The notes under the pieces were generated by a model. That model did no database searches. It had not been told where the DNA came from and saw nothing but the letters and a program-made list of their open reading frames with translations. A program made the position numbers and the translations under genes. A stretch of DNA of 64,000 bases, from contig NZ_JAMZDZ010000001.1 in NCBI RefSeq assembly GCF_024172085.1, positions 4,898,001-4,962,000 on the forward strand, in the 5' to 3' direction. Source of the DNA: Hamadaea flava. Lineage in GTDB: Bacteria > Actinomycetota > Actinomycetes > Mycobacteriales > Micromonosporaceae. Positions 54,544 to 59,098 of this stretch are shown here, piece after piece (position 1 is the stretch's first letter; the number at the start of each line of letters is the position of its first letter).

Positions 54544-55311
54544 TCAGGGGCGGATGCAGCAGCCGCTGCAGATCTTCGGCTGGTCCAGGGTGAACGCCAA
54601 GCAGCACGTCTTGCGCTGGACGGACATCCCCGAGTCGCTCGCGCAGACGTCCACGAGGTCGTCGAGCTCGAGCGCAGTGAGCAGGCGTAGCAGCGATTCG
54701 TGGGTGGAGCCGGGGAGCGCGTCGCTGGCCCGGATCATCCCGTACGCGATCCCGGACGCGACCGAGCCGAGCAGCGTACGCCGGCCGACGCGGACTTCGG
54801 TGCGGATCGCGTCGAGCAGCGGGTCGAGGTGCCGCTCGAGCAGCTGCGTACGCAGTGTGGCGAGCAGTTCGTCCTCGTCGGCGACGACGACCGTGCCCGG
54901 TGTTCCGGCGAGGGTGTCGGACGGGAGCACGGCGAACGGTGCCGGGGCGGTGCCGATGGTGAGGAACGGCGCCTCGTCGTGGAACTGGGCGTACGTCGTG
55001 TCGGCCGTCAGCAGCGGGACGCGTCGCGCCGCCGCCCAGCTCAGTACGGTCGGCAGACTGGCCCAGTAGCTGTAGCTCTTCCACGCCAGGGTGGCTGCCG
55101 CGTGCGGGGCCGCGTTCCAGCGCCGGGCGGCCGCCTGAAGCAGGAGGTCGAGGCCCTCGGGCTCGGTCAGCTTGCTCGCTCGCACCCATCCGGGGCCGGG
55201 CAGGACGCCCAGCCGGATCGCCTTCGCGGCGTCCATCACGGCGAGGGCGTTCGCGGCAGGCGCCCAGGCCACAGGGGTACGCCGAGGCGGTGCGAGCACC
55301 CCTGCCGTCAT
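54544..55311 (-). CDS. FhuF-like ferric iron reductase
   Basis: A 255-residue protein with a C-terminal CC-x10-CxxC cluster (TCCLAFTLDQPKICSGCC) characteristic of FhuF-type 2Fe-2S proteins that reduce ferric siderophores in the cytoplasm. The body has the helical FhuF/FhuF-like layout (RRWNAAPHAAATLAWKSYSYW; an Ala-rich linker). ATG 55311 is preferred, with GTG 55320 possible. An iron box lies about 70 bp upstream, so iron-repressed expression is expected. Confidence 0.85.
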   Translation of the reverse strand: MTAGVLAPPRRTPVAWAPAANALAVMDAAKAIRLGVLPGPGWVRASKLTEPEGLDLLLQAAARRWNAAPHAAATLAWKSYSYWASLPTVLSWAAARRVPLLTADTTYAQFHDEAPFLTIGTAPAPFAVLPSDTLAGTPGTVVVADEDELLATLRTQLLERHLDPLLDAIRTEVRVGRRTLLGSVASGIAYGMIRASDALPGSTHESLLRLLTALELDDLVDVCASDSGMSVQRKTCCLAFTLDQPKICSGCCIRP

Positions 55312-55379
55312 CCCAGCCACCCTTCGGCCAACCTGTCCGGACTGCCCTCACGGAGAGCAACCGGGCCAGCGTAGCGCCA

Positions 55380-55398
55380 TTAGGCTAGGCTTACCAGA
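55380..55398. promoter_or_regulatory. IdeR/DmdR-type iron box
   Basis: TTAGGCTAGGCTTACCAGA matches the IdeR consensus TTAGGTTAGGCTAACCTAA at 15 of 19 positions. It is about 70 bp upstream of the fhuF-like start and 200 bp upstream of the divergent Xre-deformylase gene. Confidence 0.75.
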
Positions 55399-55600
55399 CC
55401 GGGGTGCCCCTTCCTTTCCCAGTGTGACCGGATTTACCACTCGTGGCGGCCTGTTCCCGGAGATGAGTTCGCCCTTTGTCAAGCCACTTGTCGGGTATTC
55501 ATCACGATCATCACATAGATAGTCGTGCGCCCGAGACTGGAATCCTCACGCGCGCGAGCCACCGCGAACCGGCCGGACCCGCGCGGAGCGGAGGGTGGCA

Positions 55601-57211
55601 ATGGCGACGTCGGGGGCCGACCGTGCGGCGGAAGCGTTTGCAAGCGAGCTGGCTCGCTGGCGGCTGGACCGCGGCATGTCCAAGAAACAGTTGGCCGGAC
55701 TCATGGGTTTCGATCCGTCCTACGTCAGCCACATCGAGGGACGACGGCATCGGCCGACCGAGGACTTCGCCCGCCGGGCCGAAGCGGTGCTGGCCACGGC
55801 AGGTGCGCTCTGGCAGCGGTTTCAGGAGTACGAGGAGGCTCGGCACGGCCGATCGGCAGCGCTGATCGCCCGGGACTCGCCGATGCCGCCGCAGTGGCTG
55901 CCGCCGGGGACCGGACTGGTGGTCGAGCACGAGGAAGCACTGCTCACCTACCGCGATGGCCAGTACGTGACCACCGTCCGGCGATCGCTCTACAACGCCG
56001 GCGTCGAGCCGGTCAGCCGCTACCTCATCCGCGTTGCGGTGGACCGTTTTCCGGGCGATCCGCAGCGGTCCAACCGGCATCACCGGGAGCATCCGCTGGA
56101 ACTCGACGAGCTGGAACTCCAGGCGTCGTGCGGCGACGGTGCGGCGTACGAGCGGATGCACTGGCGGGTGAAGCAGGACCGCGACGCCTTCAAGGAGATC
56201 TGGCTGCTCTTCGAGAACGAGGACGGCCGCTTTCCGCTGTACCCCGGCGAACGGACCGCGGTGACCTACAGCTACCGCGTCGGCGAGGGGAAGTGGGGCA
56301 GCTGGTTCCAGCGGGCAGTCCGCCTGCCGACCCGGCGGATGACCGTGCGGATCGACCTGCCCCAGGCGCTCGACCCACAGGTGTGGGGCGTCGAGACCTC
56401 CATGTCGGCCGAGGAGACCCCGCTGCGTACCCTCATCGAGAAGCAGATGGAGGGTGACCGGGCGATCTTCACCTGGACCACCGACAATCCCAGCTTGAAC
56501 GCGCGATTCCGCCTGCAGTGGCGGTTCCGCGCGGTGTCGTCAGCGCCCCCGGCGCTGCATCTGCCCACCGGCGCGGCGGGCCAGCCGCTGGCGCCGCGCC
56601 TGGCGTCGGTCGGAGTGGTGCAGTGGCCGCCGCCCAGCGAGCGGGAGCCCACCGCGGGTCGGTTGCGCGCGGCGGCCAACGGAGGTCATCCACTGAGGAC
56701 TCGTGCCCGGCGGCTGGAGCTGCCGGACGAGGAGGAGCAGGCCCGGCTGATCGTCGCCGACCTGACGGTGGCGCTGGAGGAGATCGGCCGGCTGCACCCC
56801 TTCAACAAGGGCATGGGCCTGGCCGCGCCGCAGCTCGGCGTGGACGCGGCTGCCGCGGTCATCCGCCAGCCCGGTCGCGGCGAGCCGTTCGTGCTGCTCA
56901 ACCCGGTGATCGTGGAGGAGTCCCGGCAGGCGGACGAGCAACCGGAGGGCTGTCTGTCCTATTTCGACTTCCGGGGCTGGGTCCGAAGGCCGCTGCGCAT
57001 CGTGATCGAGCATCAGCGCTTCGACGGCGGCCGGGTGGTGAGCACGTTCGAACGCGGCCTGGCCCGGCTGGTCGGGCACGAGGTCGACCATCTGGCCGGG
57101 CGACTCTACGTCGACCGGATGCCGCTCGACGCGCCGCTGATTCCGTTGGCCGACTACAGCTCGGGACCGTGGGTCTACGATCAGCAGCCGTTGGAGCAGA
57201 GGGCCTGGTAG
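55601..57211 (+). CDS. Xre-HTH / peptide deformylase fusion
   Basis: A 536-residue three-part protein. An Xre-type HTH (SKKQLAGLMGFDPSYVSHIEGRRHRP, about 26-51) is followed by an uncharacterised beta-rich domain (about 110-325; segments such as GKWGSWFQRAVRLPTRRM). A Pro-rich linker leads to a peptide deformylase domain with all three motifs: GMGLAAPQLG (near 405), EGCLSY (near 449) and HEVDH (near 493), so the metal ligands Cys, His, His and catalytic Glu are intact. Deformylases normally stand alone and remove formyl from new proteins. ATG 55601 has a GGAGGG site; GTG 55595 is possible. It ends 31 bp inside the convergent CPBP gene. Confidence 0.9.
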   Translation: MATSGADRAAEAFASELARWRLDRGMSKKQLAGLMGFDPSYVSHIEGRRHRPTEDFARRAEAVLATAGALWQRFQEYEEARHGRSAALIARDSPMPPQWLPPGTGLVVEHEEALLTYRDGQYVTTVRRSLYNAGVEPVSRYLIRVAVDRFPGDPQRSNRHHREHPLELDELELQASCGDGAAYERMHWRVKQDRDAFKEIWLLFENEDGRFPLYPGERTAVTYSYRVGEGKWGSWFQRAVRLPTRRMTVRIDLPQALDPQVWGVETSMSAEETPLRTLIEKQMEGDRAIFTWTTDNPSLNARFRLQWRFRAVSSAPPALHLPTGAAGQPLAPRLASVGVVQWPPPSEREPTAGRLRAAANGGHPLRTRARRLELPDEEEQARLIVADLTVALEEIGRLHPFNKGMGLAAPQLGVDAAAAVIRQPGRGEPFVLLNPVIVEESRQADEQPEGCLSYFDFRGWVRRPLRIVIEHQRFDGGRVVSTFERGLARLVGHEVDHLAGRLYVDRMPLDAPLIPLADYSSGPWVYDQQPLEQRAW

Positions 57212-57924
57212 CCGACGAACGCCACCACGTCGAGCAGCGTGTGCGCGACGATCAGCGGCCCGACCCGCCGCCACTTCAGGTAGACGAGCGCGAACACCAC
57301 GCCCATGATCGCGTTTCCGACGAAACCGCCGAACCCCTGATAGAGGTGGTAGGAACCGCGCAGCAGCGCGCTGGCCGCGATGACCGCGGGGATCGACCAG
57401 CGCAGCTCGCGTAGCCGCGTGATCAGGTACCCGACCACGATCACCTCTTCCAGCACCGCGTTCTGCACGGCGGAGAGGATCAGCACCGGCACGGACCACC
57501 ACAGGCTCGGCAGCCCCGACGCGCTCACATCGGTGTTCAGGCCGAGAGCGCGCGCACCGAAGTAAAGACCAAGCCCCGGAATCCCGACCAGCGCGGCCAG
57601 CGCCGCGCCCCCGCCCAGGTCGAACCACGGCCGTCGCAGGTCCAGACCGAGGACCAGGCGCGGCCGTCCGGGGTCCCGATTCAGCAAGTGGTACGCGAGC
57701 CCGACCACCACGAGGGCGAAGAAGATGTCGAGCAGCTGGTACGTGAGGTCGAAGTACGGCCGGACCGAACGGGAGACGTTGAGCGCCGACGTCTGACTGG
57801 ACAACGGACCGGGCTTGGTCAGTTTGGCGATCAGCGACACCAACGAATAAATCGCCGATTGTCCAAGTGAAAGGCCGAGGACCAGTAGCAACTCGTTGCG
57901 ACGGCGTACCGCGAGGTTCCTCAC
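57181..57924 (-). CDS. CPBP-family intramembrane metalloprotease (CAAX/Abi type)
   Basis: A protein of about 247 residues with seven or eight membrane helices. CPBP motifs: EEVIVVGYL (motif 1, with Val where Arg is usual in EExxxR), LLRGSYHLYQG (motif 2 with His) and AHTLLDVVAFVG (motif 3). Members cleave prenylated or membrane proteins or protect against bacteriocins. Several GTG starts (57924, 57933, 57963) are possible; the first gives the best N-terminus. It is divergent from the flavohemoglobin-like gene with a palindrome between. Confidence 0.85.
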   Translation of the reverse strand: MRNLAVRRRNELLLVLGLSLGQSAIYSLVSLIAKLTKPGPLSSQTSALNVSRSVRPYFDLTYQLLDIFFALVVVGLAYHLLNRDPGRPRLVLGLDLRRPWFDLGGGAALAALVGIPGLGLYFGARALGLNTDVSASGLPSLWWSVPVLILSAVQNAVLEEVIVVGYLITRLRELRWSIPAVIAASALLRGSYHLYQGFGGFVGNAIMGVVFALVYLKWRRVGPLIVAHTLLDVVAFVGYQALCSNGC

Positions 57925-57935
57925 GCACCGCACTA

Positions 57936-57952
57936 TCGCACAAGTTGTGCGA
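57936..57952. promoter_or_regulatory. 17-bp palindrome between CPBP and flavohemoglobin genes
   Basis: Perfect 8-bp arms TCGCACAA (57936-57943) and TTGTGCGA (57945-57952) with a single central G. It sits in the ~60-bp divergent promoter region, covering either promoter. It matches none of the NO, iron or redox consensus sequences I can recall. Confidence 0.65.
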
Positions 57953-57985
57953 CTCGCCGTCACTGATTGTCGCGAGAGTCGTTAC

Positions 57986-59098
57986 GTGTCCGACCTACAA
58001 CGGCTGTTGAAGGAGTCCTGGACCCTCGTCGAAGAGGACCAGGACAAGTTGGCCGGCTACTTCTACGCCCGCATCTTCCTAGGTCGTCCCGAAGTCAGAG
58101 ACCTGTTTCCGGTCACCATGGACGTCCAGCGAGCCCGTCTGCTGGGCGCGATCGTCAGCGCCATCCAGACCGTCGACGATCCCGAACGATTCGACGAGTA
58201 CCTGCGGTCCCTCGGCCGCGACCACCGCAAGTTCCAAGTCGTCCCGGAGCAGTACGAAGTAGTCGGCGCCGCGCTGCTGGAAGCGCTGCGCACCTTCGGC
58301 CGGGGCGATTGGACTCCCGAGTACGACCAGGCGTGGCGGGACGCGTACGACGTCATCGCGCGCAAGATGCTGGCCGGAGCGGAGGCCGACACCAATCCCG
58401 CATTCGTCCACGCCGAGGTCGTCAGCCACGAACGGCGCGGGCGCGACATCGGCATCATGCGCGTACGCCCGCTGCAACACCTGGAATTCCGCCCAGGCCA
58501 GTACGTCAGCCTGGAATGCCCGAAGTACCAGCCGCGCGTCTGGCGTACCTATTCCATCGCCAACGCGCCCCGGGCCGACGGCACCATGGACTTTCACATC
58601 CGGGCGCTGGGCGCGGGCTGGGTCTCCGGCGCGCTGGTCCGGCGTACGCTTCCCGGCGACATGCTCCGGCTGGCGGCTCCGATGGGAACCATGGCCGTCG
58701 ACCGGCGATCGCAGCGCGACATCGTGCTGATCGCCGGCGGCACCGGGCTGGCGCCGATCAAGGCGATCATCGAGGAGTTGGCGACCTTCAACCGGACCCG
58801 GTGGGTGCACGTGTTCTACGGCGCGCGGGATCGGGACGACCTCTACGACCTGCCCGACCTGCAACGTCTGGCGAGCGTCTTCCCGTGGCTGTCGCTGATG
58901 CCGGTCTGCTCGCACGATTCCGGCTGGGGCGGGGAGGAGGGTCTGCTCAGCGAGGTCGTACGCCGCTACGGCCCGTGGCAGGACCACGACTTCTACCTGT
59001 CCGGCTCGCCCGCGATGATCCGCGCGACGCTGCGGGCGCTCAACGAGCTCCAGGTCCCGTCGATGCGGGTGAAGTACGACGCCTTCGCCGACTACTAG
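57986..59098 (+). CDS. Flavohemoglobin-like protein (globin + FAD/NAD reductase)
   Basis: A 370-residue two-domain protein. The globin domain (about 1-130) has the helix-B Tyr in LAGYFYARIF and a candidate proximal His in LGRDHRKFQVV. The reductase domain (about 145-370) has the FAD motif RVWRTYSIAN and the NAD motif LIAGGTGLAPIKAIIEEL, then FYGARDRDDLYDLP and YLSGSPAMIRA. This is the Hmp layout; the usual function is NO dioxygenation. GTG 57986 gives the natural globin start; a longer frame to 57896 overlaps the divergent promoter. A strong terminator follows. Confidence 0.92.
   Translation: MSDLQRLLKESWTLVEEDQDKLAGYFYARIFLGRPEVRDLFPVTMDVQRARLLGAIVSAIQTVDDPERFDEYLRSLGRDHRKFQVVPEQYEVVGAALLEALRTFGRGDWTPEYDQAWRDAYDVIARKMLAGAEADTNPAFVHAEVVSHERRGRDIGIMRVRPLQHLEFRPGQYVSLECPKYQPRVWRTYSIANAPRADGTMDFHIRALGAGWVSGALVRRTLPGDMLRLAAPMGTMAVDRRSQRDIVLIAGGTGLAPIKAIIEELATFNRTRWVHVFYGARDRDDLYDLPDLQRLASVFPWLSLMPVCSHDSGWGGEEGLLSEVVRRYGPWQDHDFYLSGSPAMIRATLRALNELQVPSMRVKYDAFADY

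Follow-up and report, generated by a model that had tools for sequence, protein, structure and literature searches.

NadR and BirA are trigger-enzyme regulators, and ImmA/IrrE-XRE modules occur on mobile elements. Another trigger-enzyme regulator, an XRE regulator/shikimate kinase, is mentioned in PMC8153426. In S. coelicolor, as described in PMC12161575, the SCO6158/SCO6159 pair combines a gene with an FhuF-type [2Fe-2S] motif and an iron box with a divergent GntR regulator. The gene considered here joins an XRE-type helix-turn-helix (HTH), a middle domain and a peptide deformylase (PDF) in one chain. It lies in the window, meaning the whole stretch of 64,000 nucleotides of Hamadaea flava that was analysed, in a genome of 8.86 Mb assembled as a single contig. 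Hamadaea also supplies the nearest named loci, at 97 and 96% across the middle domain.

Domain architecture of the fusion gene

The gene is one open frame from the ATG at 55601 to the TAG at 57211, with an in-frame GTG upstream at 55595. Its domains, and the features of the divergent intergenic region and neighbour, are as follows.

54547..55320, minus strand: FhuF-like [2Fe-2S] gene with a C-terminal CC-x10-C-x2-C; divergent, conserved neighbour
55380..55398, no strand assigned: IdeR/DmdR1-type iron box, matching TTAGGTTAGGCTAACCTAA at 15/19 positions; in the shared divergent intergenic region
55476..55494, plus strand: predicted operator-like direct repeat TTGTCAAG-N4-TTGTCGG, 106 nt 5' of the ATG
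55601..57211, plus strand: HTH_31 - M1N-like - peptide deformylase fusion gene, 536 aa, TAG included
55634..55819, plus strand: HTH_31 (XRE-type) domain, residues 12-73, Pfam PF13560
55913..56536, plus strand: middle domain, residues ~105-312, with the modelled fold of the M1 aminopeptidase N-terminal beta domain / Ost1
56690..57121, plus strand: peptide deformylase (PDF) domain, residues 364-507, Pfam PF01327

The preliminary description had recognised an Xre-type HTH fused to a deformylase, and this holds for the single 536-aa frame. Both Pfam domains score over their cut-offs (HTH_31, residues 12-73, E 2.2e-12, 47.5 bits against a cut-off of 27; Pep_deformylase, residues 364-507, E 2.8e-27, 95.7 bits against a gathering cut-off of 22.8), and the three catalytic motifs of the PDF are present, GMGLAAPQ at residue 404 (nt 56810), EGCLS at residue 449 (nt 56945) and HEVDH at residue 493 (nt 57077). 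Over residues 76-360 no Pfam family scored above its cut-off. Same-order HTH-middle-PDF fusions are present in many genera of the Micromonosporaceae and run from start to stop in genera other than Hamadaea, which excludes an assembly join. In the homology search with the fusion protein many relatives were initially listed with '1 TGA/TAG inside'; a readthrough or split reading of their fused genes was rejected, the frames spanning both domains and stopping near the C-terminus of the match. A structure model of the whole chain reached a pTM of 0.47, too low to read the packing of the domains.

Against the NCBIfam peptide deformylase models (equivalog/subfamily), the PDF stays under the cut-offs, with 88.1 against 125 bits and 78.2 against 103.95 bits, indicating a divergent PDF rather than the standard enzyme. 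Solved relatives include 1q1y, which is the best match (2.9e-17), and 3qu1. Judged by its motifs the domain looks active. Across the family, GxGLAAxQ, EGCL and HExDH are retained in 190, 188 and 191 of 192 PDF domains, a count in which near-identical loci are repeated, and the longer pattern EGCLxxxxxR is retained in 187 of the 192. The exceptions read EGCM, EGCW, GMGMAAPQ or SMGIAAPQ, or belong to one domain that is cut at the end of its locus. As to the check for a separate def gene proposed in the preliminary description, the Hamadaea genome contains four PDF genes besides the fusion, all of which outscore the fusion PDF against the family, and on the strength of these matches a reading of the fusion gene as the housekeeping def was rejected. 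At least two PDFs per genome were present in all 15 genomes checked. Pairwise identity across 19 fused proteins averages 0.76 in the HTH, 0.65 in the middle domain, 0.60 in the PDF and 0.36 in the linker, which varies in length from 21 to 74 aa. A literature search on Zur/PDF paralogs gave nothing relevant among the matches listed.

The 210-aa middle domain, previously called unknown, has a recognisable fold as modelled. Structure comparison places it with the N-terminal domain of M1 aminopeptidases and with Ost1 (ribophorin I), at 6-14% identity in the structural matches, hence the term M1N-like used here. The five Pfam families listed for the fusion protein to E 1 include no match to an M1 (gluzincin) catalytic domain. 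DUF3857 matches the middle domain in 10 of 26 members, under its cut-off (best 0.0051). Two long frames at another locus (873 and 997 aa; L036, 4447-7326 and 9480-11897) likewise contain an M1N-like domain, close to their C-termini, and no HTH or PDF of the fusion family was found in these frames.

The divergent FhuF-like gene and the upstream repeats

Among the closest relatives, the FhuF-like gene is divergent from the fusion gene in 76 of 79 loci. These are the loci with a called upstream gene in a set made up of the window and L060-L139, the best 80 of 396 relatives, and so represent near kin rather than a spread sample; the controls for this set contain no gene up to two positions away from the anchor, and gene calls around this and the other loci rest on a crude frame caller of our own. 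In a broader set the arrangement is found in 87 of 98 loci (102 loci minus four without an anchor), repeats included, as loci overlap and some places are counted twice. The FhuF-like protein of the window scores 18.8 bits against Pfam FhuF, below the cut-off of 25.2, and NCBIfam gave it no name. At E 0.05, FhuF matches 13 of 14 FhuF-like members (best 4.7e-7) and FhuF_C matches 7 of 14, and the motif CC-x(9-11)-C-x2-C is present in all 87 FhuF-like neighbours (repeats included).

The consensus of the iron box, TTAGGTTAGGCTAACCTAA, is also printed in PMC7174319. Matches of at least 14/19 occur in 76/76 FhuF-linked loci and in two of the three others, against 1/804 other upstream regions and 0/284 random windows. 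The box stands ~60 nt from the FhuF-like start and ~200 nt from the fusion ATG, so that it most likely serves the FhuF-like gene. Iron, which had been put forward as one signal for the fusion protein, gains from the box and from the FhuF-like neighbour, but the position of the box nearer to that neighbour counts against it. From the gene arrangement, the FhuF-like gene is a possible co-regulated target of the fusion protein.

Distant FhuF-like homologues are found in 58 of 61 genomes of a genus that we take to be Streptomyces (E 0.001), and the 12 of these genes that were fetched (L238-L249) all have an iron box. At 7 of the 12 loci a GntR-type pattern was detected (by pattern, not profile), in 6 of them in divergent orientation, in agreement with the SCO6158/SCO6159 pair. 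HTH-M1N-PDF therefore seems to occupy the place of a regulator that is of an ordinary type elsewhere, and the comparison of these loci suggests regulator replacement at one locus. As a further heme/iron link, a flavohemoprotein (globin plus FAD/NAD domains) is encoded at 57896-59095 of the window. A gene of this cluster adjoins the other side of the fusion gene, in convergent orientation, in 74 of the 98 loci; in the window itself it is found two genes from the fusion gene, on the same strand.

The direct repeat between the iron box and the fusion gene is confined to this one place. The strict pattern of this type (type A), TTGTCAAGN{4,5}TGTCGG, has a single match in the 8.86-Mb genome, at 55476-55494, and a control pattern has none. 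With patterns drawn up after inspection of the upstream regions and then loosened in stages, repeats resembling TTGTCAAG-N4/5-TTGTCGG were found in 93 of 116 upstream regions of genes with a strong middle-domain score, and a looser form of type A in 68 of 80 own upstream regions versus 1 of 874 others. Other members carry ACTCACG/TTCACG repeats (type B), present in 25 of 28 own upstream regions versus 7 of 305 controls. When six genomes were searched for type B, one exact site each was found in G490, G635, G884 and G1043, a site with one mismatch in G725 and none in G831; there were also two sites with two mismatches, and the control pattern gave three matches. By position, the four exact sites and that in G725 lie just upstream of the gene of the family.

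The type of repeat goes with the recognition helix of the HTH. The comparison covers the 166 upstream regions with an HTH match and enough sequence, in 25 of which neither repeat was found. RRHRPT-like helices (115 proteins) are associated with type A in 103 cases, with both types in 3, with type B alone in 0 and with neither in 9. For other helices (51 proteins), the corresponding figures are 2 with type A, 33 with type B and 16 with neither. Shared ancestry contributes to this pairing, and could by itself have produced it. From the sequence comparisons we infer that the HTH binds the upstream repeat. In the strong-score group, 9 of 12 upstream regions of PDF-less genes have kept the type-A repeat. 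Several syntenic PDF-less orthologs keep the HTH, the repeat and the locus, which indicates a conserved DNA-side role independent of the PDF, with the PDF as an optional input.

Fused, split and PDF-less members

The preliminary description had looked towards a survey of the fusion in other actinomycetes, and a conserved family emerges: the middle-domain profile matches 166 of 200 sampled genomes of the host family (38 of 44 genera); among genomes sampled more widely it matches 88 of 397 in the order and 3 of 396 in the phylum. Within the presumed Streptomyces genus it matches 30 of 246 genomes, several of them by fragments only, and the members there resemble a plasmid copy of S. cellulosae. 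The top 20 loci from this genus, whose identity is presumed, were retained from 36 listed matches; the HTH-middle and PDF parts are split in 14 of them and fused in 6. The genes of all 14 split pairs overlap at the GTG start of the PDF gene and the TGA stop of the HTH-middle gene, 12 pairs by 4 nt and 2 by 8 nt.

Presence of the PDF has changed at least seven times on a quick tree of 72 representatives (from 223 rows, with near-copies removed); with 24 open forks and long branches in that tree, the count is rough and does not distinguish gain from loss. Catellatospora, which stands beside the Hamadaea group on the tree, has no PDF at the same locus, and the same is true of several further orthologs. 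In Phytohabitans suffuscus (L117) there is an apparent frameshift between the middle domain and the PDF. In L176, a PDF gene follows directly after the HTH-middle gene. In three distantly related loci (L037, L186 and L187) the HTH-M1N gene is unfused and stands in divergent orientation to RimO, an identity that NCBIfam gives for the neighbour in L187, and a PDF gene lies ~1 kb downstream. A relative in a 2.4-Mb genome (L033, 1201-2715) keeps M1N-PDF behind a different N-terminal segment, HTH-like by eye, and its HTH head seems to have been exchanged. In L038 and L188-L191 a PDF-less paralogue has two neighbours characterised by eye, a gene of 1302-1305 aa whose start is P-loop-like and a second gene that is TIR-like, and we take this neighbourhood to resemble FxSxx systems.

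The divergent partner is not always FhuF-like. In the genus taken to be Streptomyces, the nine split loci with wide flanks are all divergent from the next upstream gene, which by eye is the same glycosyltransferase-like gene in each; the name comes from the annotation of the S. cellulosae plasmid, and NCBIfam gave none for the gene of L214. In other members the opposite side is occupied by a 6-carboxytetrahydropterin synthase/QueE operon, a D-Ala ligase operon, a hypothetical/MazF pair or QueC. Plasmid records contain both fused and split forms, thirteen actinomycete ones cover at least 80% of the query, and the plasmid-borne genes listed are mostly annotated as peptide deformylase. All 8 matching contigs in IMG/VR carry the fused form, and the five opposite-strand upstream genes tested on such contigs encode DUF6907 proteins. 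Among isolated phage records there was no match covering at least 80% of the query. A role as a phage defence gene was not supported, as PADLOC gave only two HTH-level matches to the fusion protein (2e-4 and 0.0025); it gave no match for three neighbour genes.

Proposed function and comparison with known systems

The reading we prefer, with confidence a little short of even, is a narrow, local one-component regulator, probably autoregulatory, with a sensor head made of the M1N-like domain and the PDF. The HTH would bind the repeat at its own promoter, controlling its own gene and probably the divergent gene, which here would be the FhuF-like siderophore-iron gene that separately has an iron box. 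The M1N-like domain and the PDF would form the input module, the former holding a polypeptide N-terminus and the Fe2+-dependent site of the latter binding or removing its formyl group, and the occupancy or metal state of this site would alter DNA binding. A plausible signal would be an unprocessed formyl-methionyl protein, rising when Fe2+-dependent PDF activity fails; a hydroxamate-like ligand would be a plausible alternative. The PDF half would be optional, being absent in some lineages and, in others, encoded by an overlapping gene of its own. Within the sequence evidence, the strongest fact for a functional tie is the fused-or-overlapping state in distant lineages with the metal ligands intact, and the strongest against a necessary sensor is the repeated absence of the PDF with the repeat retained. 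The preliminary description had offered a regulator with a deformylase-like sensor or a backup deformylase. The former is the better supported, by the divergent setting, the single-copy repeat tracking the HTH helix and the GntR-type stand-in, though its sensor part is weakened by PDF-less syntenic orthologs that keep the DNA-side features.

We are more doubtful of a bolder and more specific proposal, in which the active site of an ancient translation enzyme was recruited as a sensor. The M1N domain would hold N-termini, the Fe2+-PDF would read formyl-methionine or a hydroxamate (siderophore or PDF inhibitor), and the protein would report failing N-terminal processing or iron loss to the iron-release gene or, where it is carried by a plasmid or phage-like element, to the operon of that element.

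The best-surviving alternative, which we hold to be unlikely though of some substance, is a conditional or dedicated deformylase with no regulatory target but its own synthesis. Its HTH would be an autorepressor, and the M1N-like domain would direct the PDF to particular proteins, or the enzyme would sustain deformylation under iron shortage or PDF inhibition. The retention of the motifs in 188-191 of 192 PDF domains, the single-copy repeat at the gene's own promoter, the overlapping genes of the split forms and the iron-linked locus are all consistent with such an enzyme. Four other PDFs in the genome speak against it, as do the PDF-less orthologs still present at this locus, most of which have retained the repeat, and the wide differences in divergent genes between lineages, which fit a regulator better than a backup enzyme.

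A switch like that of XRE/ImmA(IrrE) pairs, in which the action of the metal hydrolase on its HTH partner, or on a peptide that it holds, lifts repression, seems quite improbable to us. It would explain why an HTH and an HExxH metal hydrolase are associated, in one chain or through overlapping genes, and the occurrence on 13 plasmid records (at least 80% of the query) and, in fused form, on 8/8 IMG/VR contigs. Many members, however, occupy stable chromosomal loci, a Pfam search to E 1 gave no match to ImmA/IrrE or any other peptidase family, and no PDF is known to cut unformylated chains.

Actinonin, a hydroxamate, is an actinomycete product, and the PDF half might give or sense tolerance to inhibitors of this type, as a target copy that soaks up the inhibitor and signals its presence. 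The actinomycete setting, the several PDFs per genome and the sporadic PDF losses would suit this, but presence in 166/200 genomes of the family and the FhuF-like synteny are unlike a resistance gene, and we give the idea little credence. That an ancient operon fusion carries the PDF along as a passenger, kept active in general deformylation and unlinked to the task of the HTH, agrees with its repeated absence where the HTH locus stays and with a linker of 21-74 aa, but is very unlikely given that the fusion or overlap persists in distant actinomycetes with intact ligands and that the PDF, at an identity of 0.60, is nearly as conserved as the middle domain (0.65).

If the PDF site of the preferred one-component regulator is a sensor, bacteria would be able to read N-terminal formylation or Fe2+ supply directly into transcription, and inhibitors of PDF would turn into signals for gene expression. 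The wide spread in actinomycetes, the natural controls provided by fused, overlapping-gene and PDF-less forms, and the single predicted operator make the sensor question directly testable.

Compared with peptide deformylases (PF01327), the fusion PDF is alike in its Pfam match and three motifs, and differs in its HTH and M1N-like partners and in its NCBIfam scores below the cut-offs. With HTH_31/XRE one-component regulators the protein shares the N-terminal HTH_31, the divergent neighbour and the repeat at its own promoter, whereas the rest of the chain, an M1N-like domain and a metal enzyme, is different. As modelled, it has the N-terminal beta domain fold in common with M1 aminopeptidases and Ost1; in contrast to the former it lacks, by the Pfam scan, the M1 catalytic domain, and the M1N-like domain precedes a PDF instead. 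The fusion family resembles ImmA/IrrE-XRE modules in lay-out, with an HTH and an HExxH hydrolase fused or coupled and with members on plasmids and IMG/VR contigs, but by sequence comparison its hydrolase is a PDF with no ImmA/IrrE Pfam match. The SCO6158/SCO6159 locus shares with the fusion locus the FhuF-type [2Fe-2S] motif gene, the iron box and a divergent regulator, which is of GntR type there and HTH-M1N-PDF here. A search of mainly open-access literature found no transcription regulator carrying a deformylase. The likeness to trigger-enzyme regulators is one of working principle, with enzyme and HTH in one chain, the enzyme here being a deformylase. HTH-enzyme fusions are a known kind, and a deformylase in that role, with an adjoining M1N domain, appears to be new.
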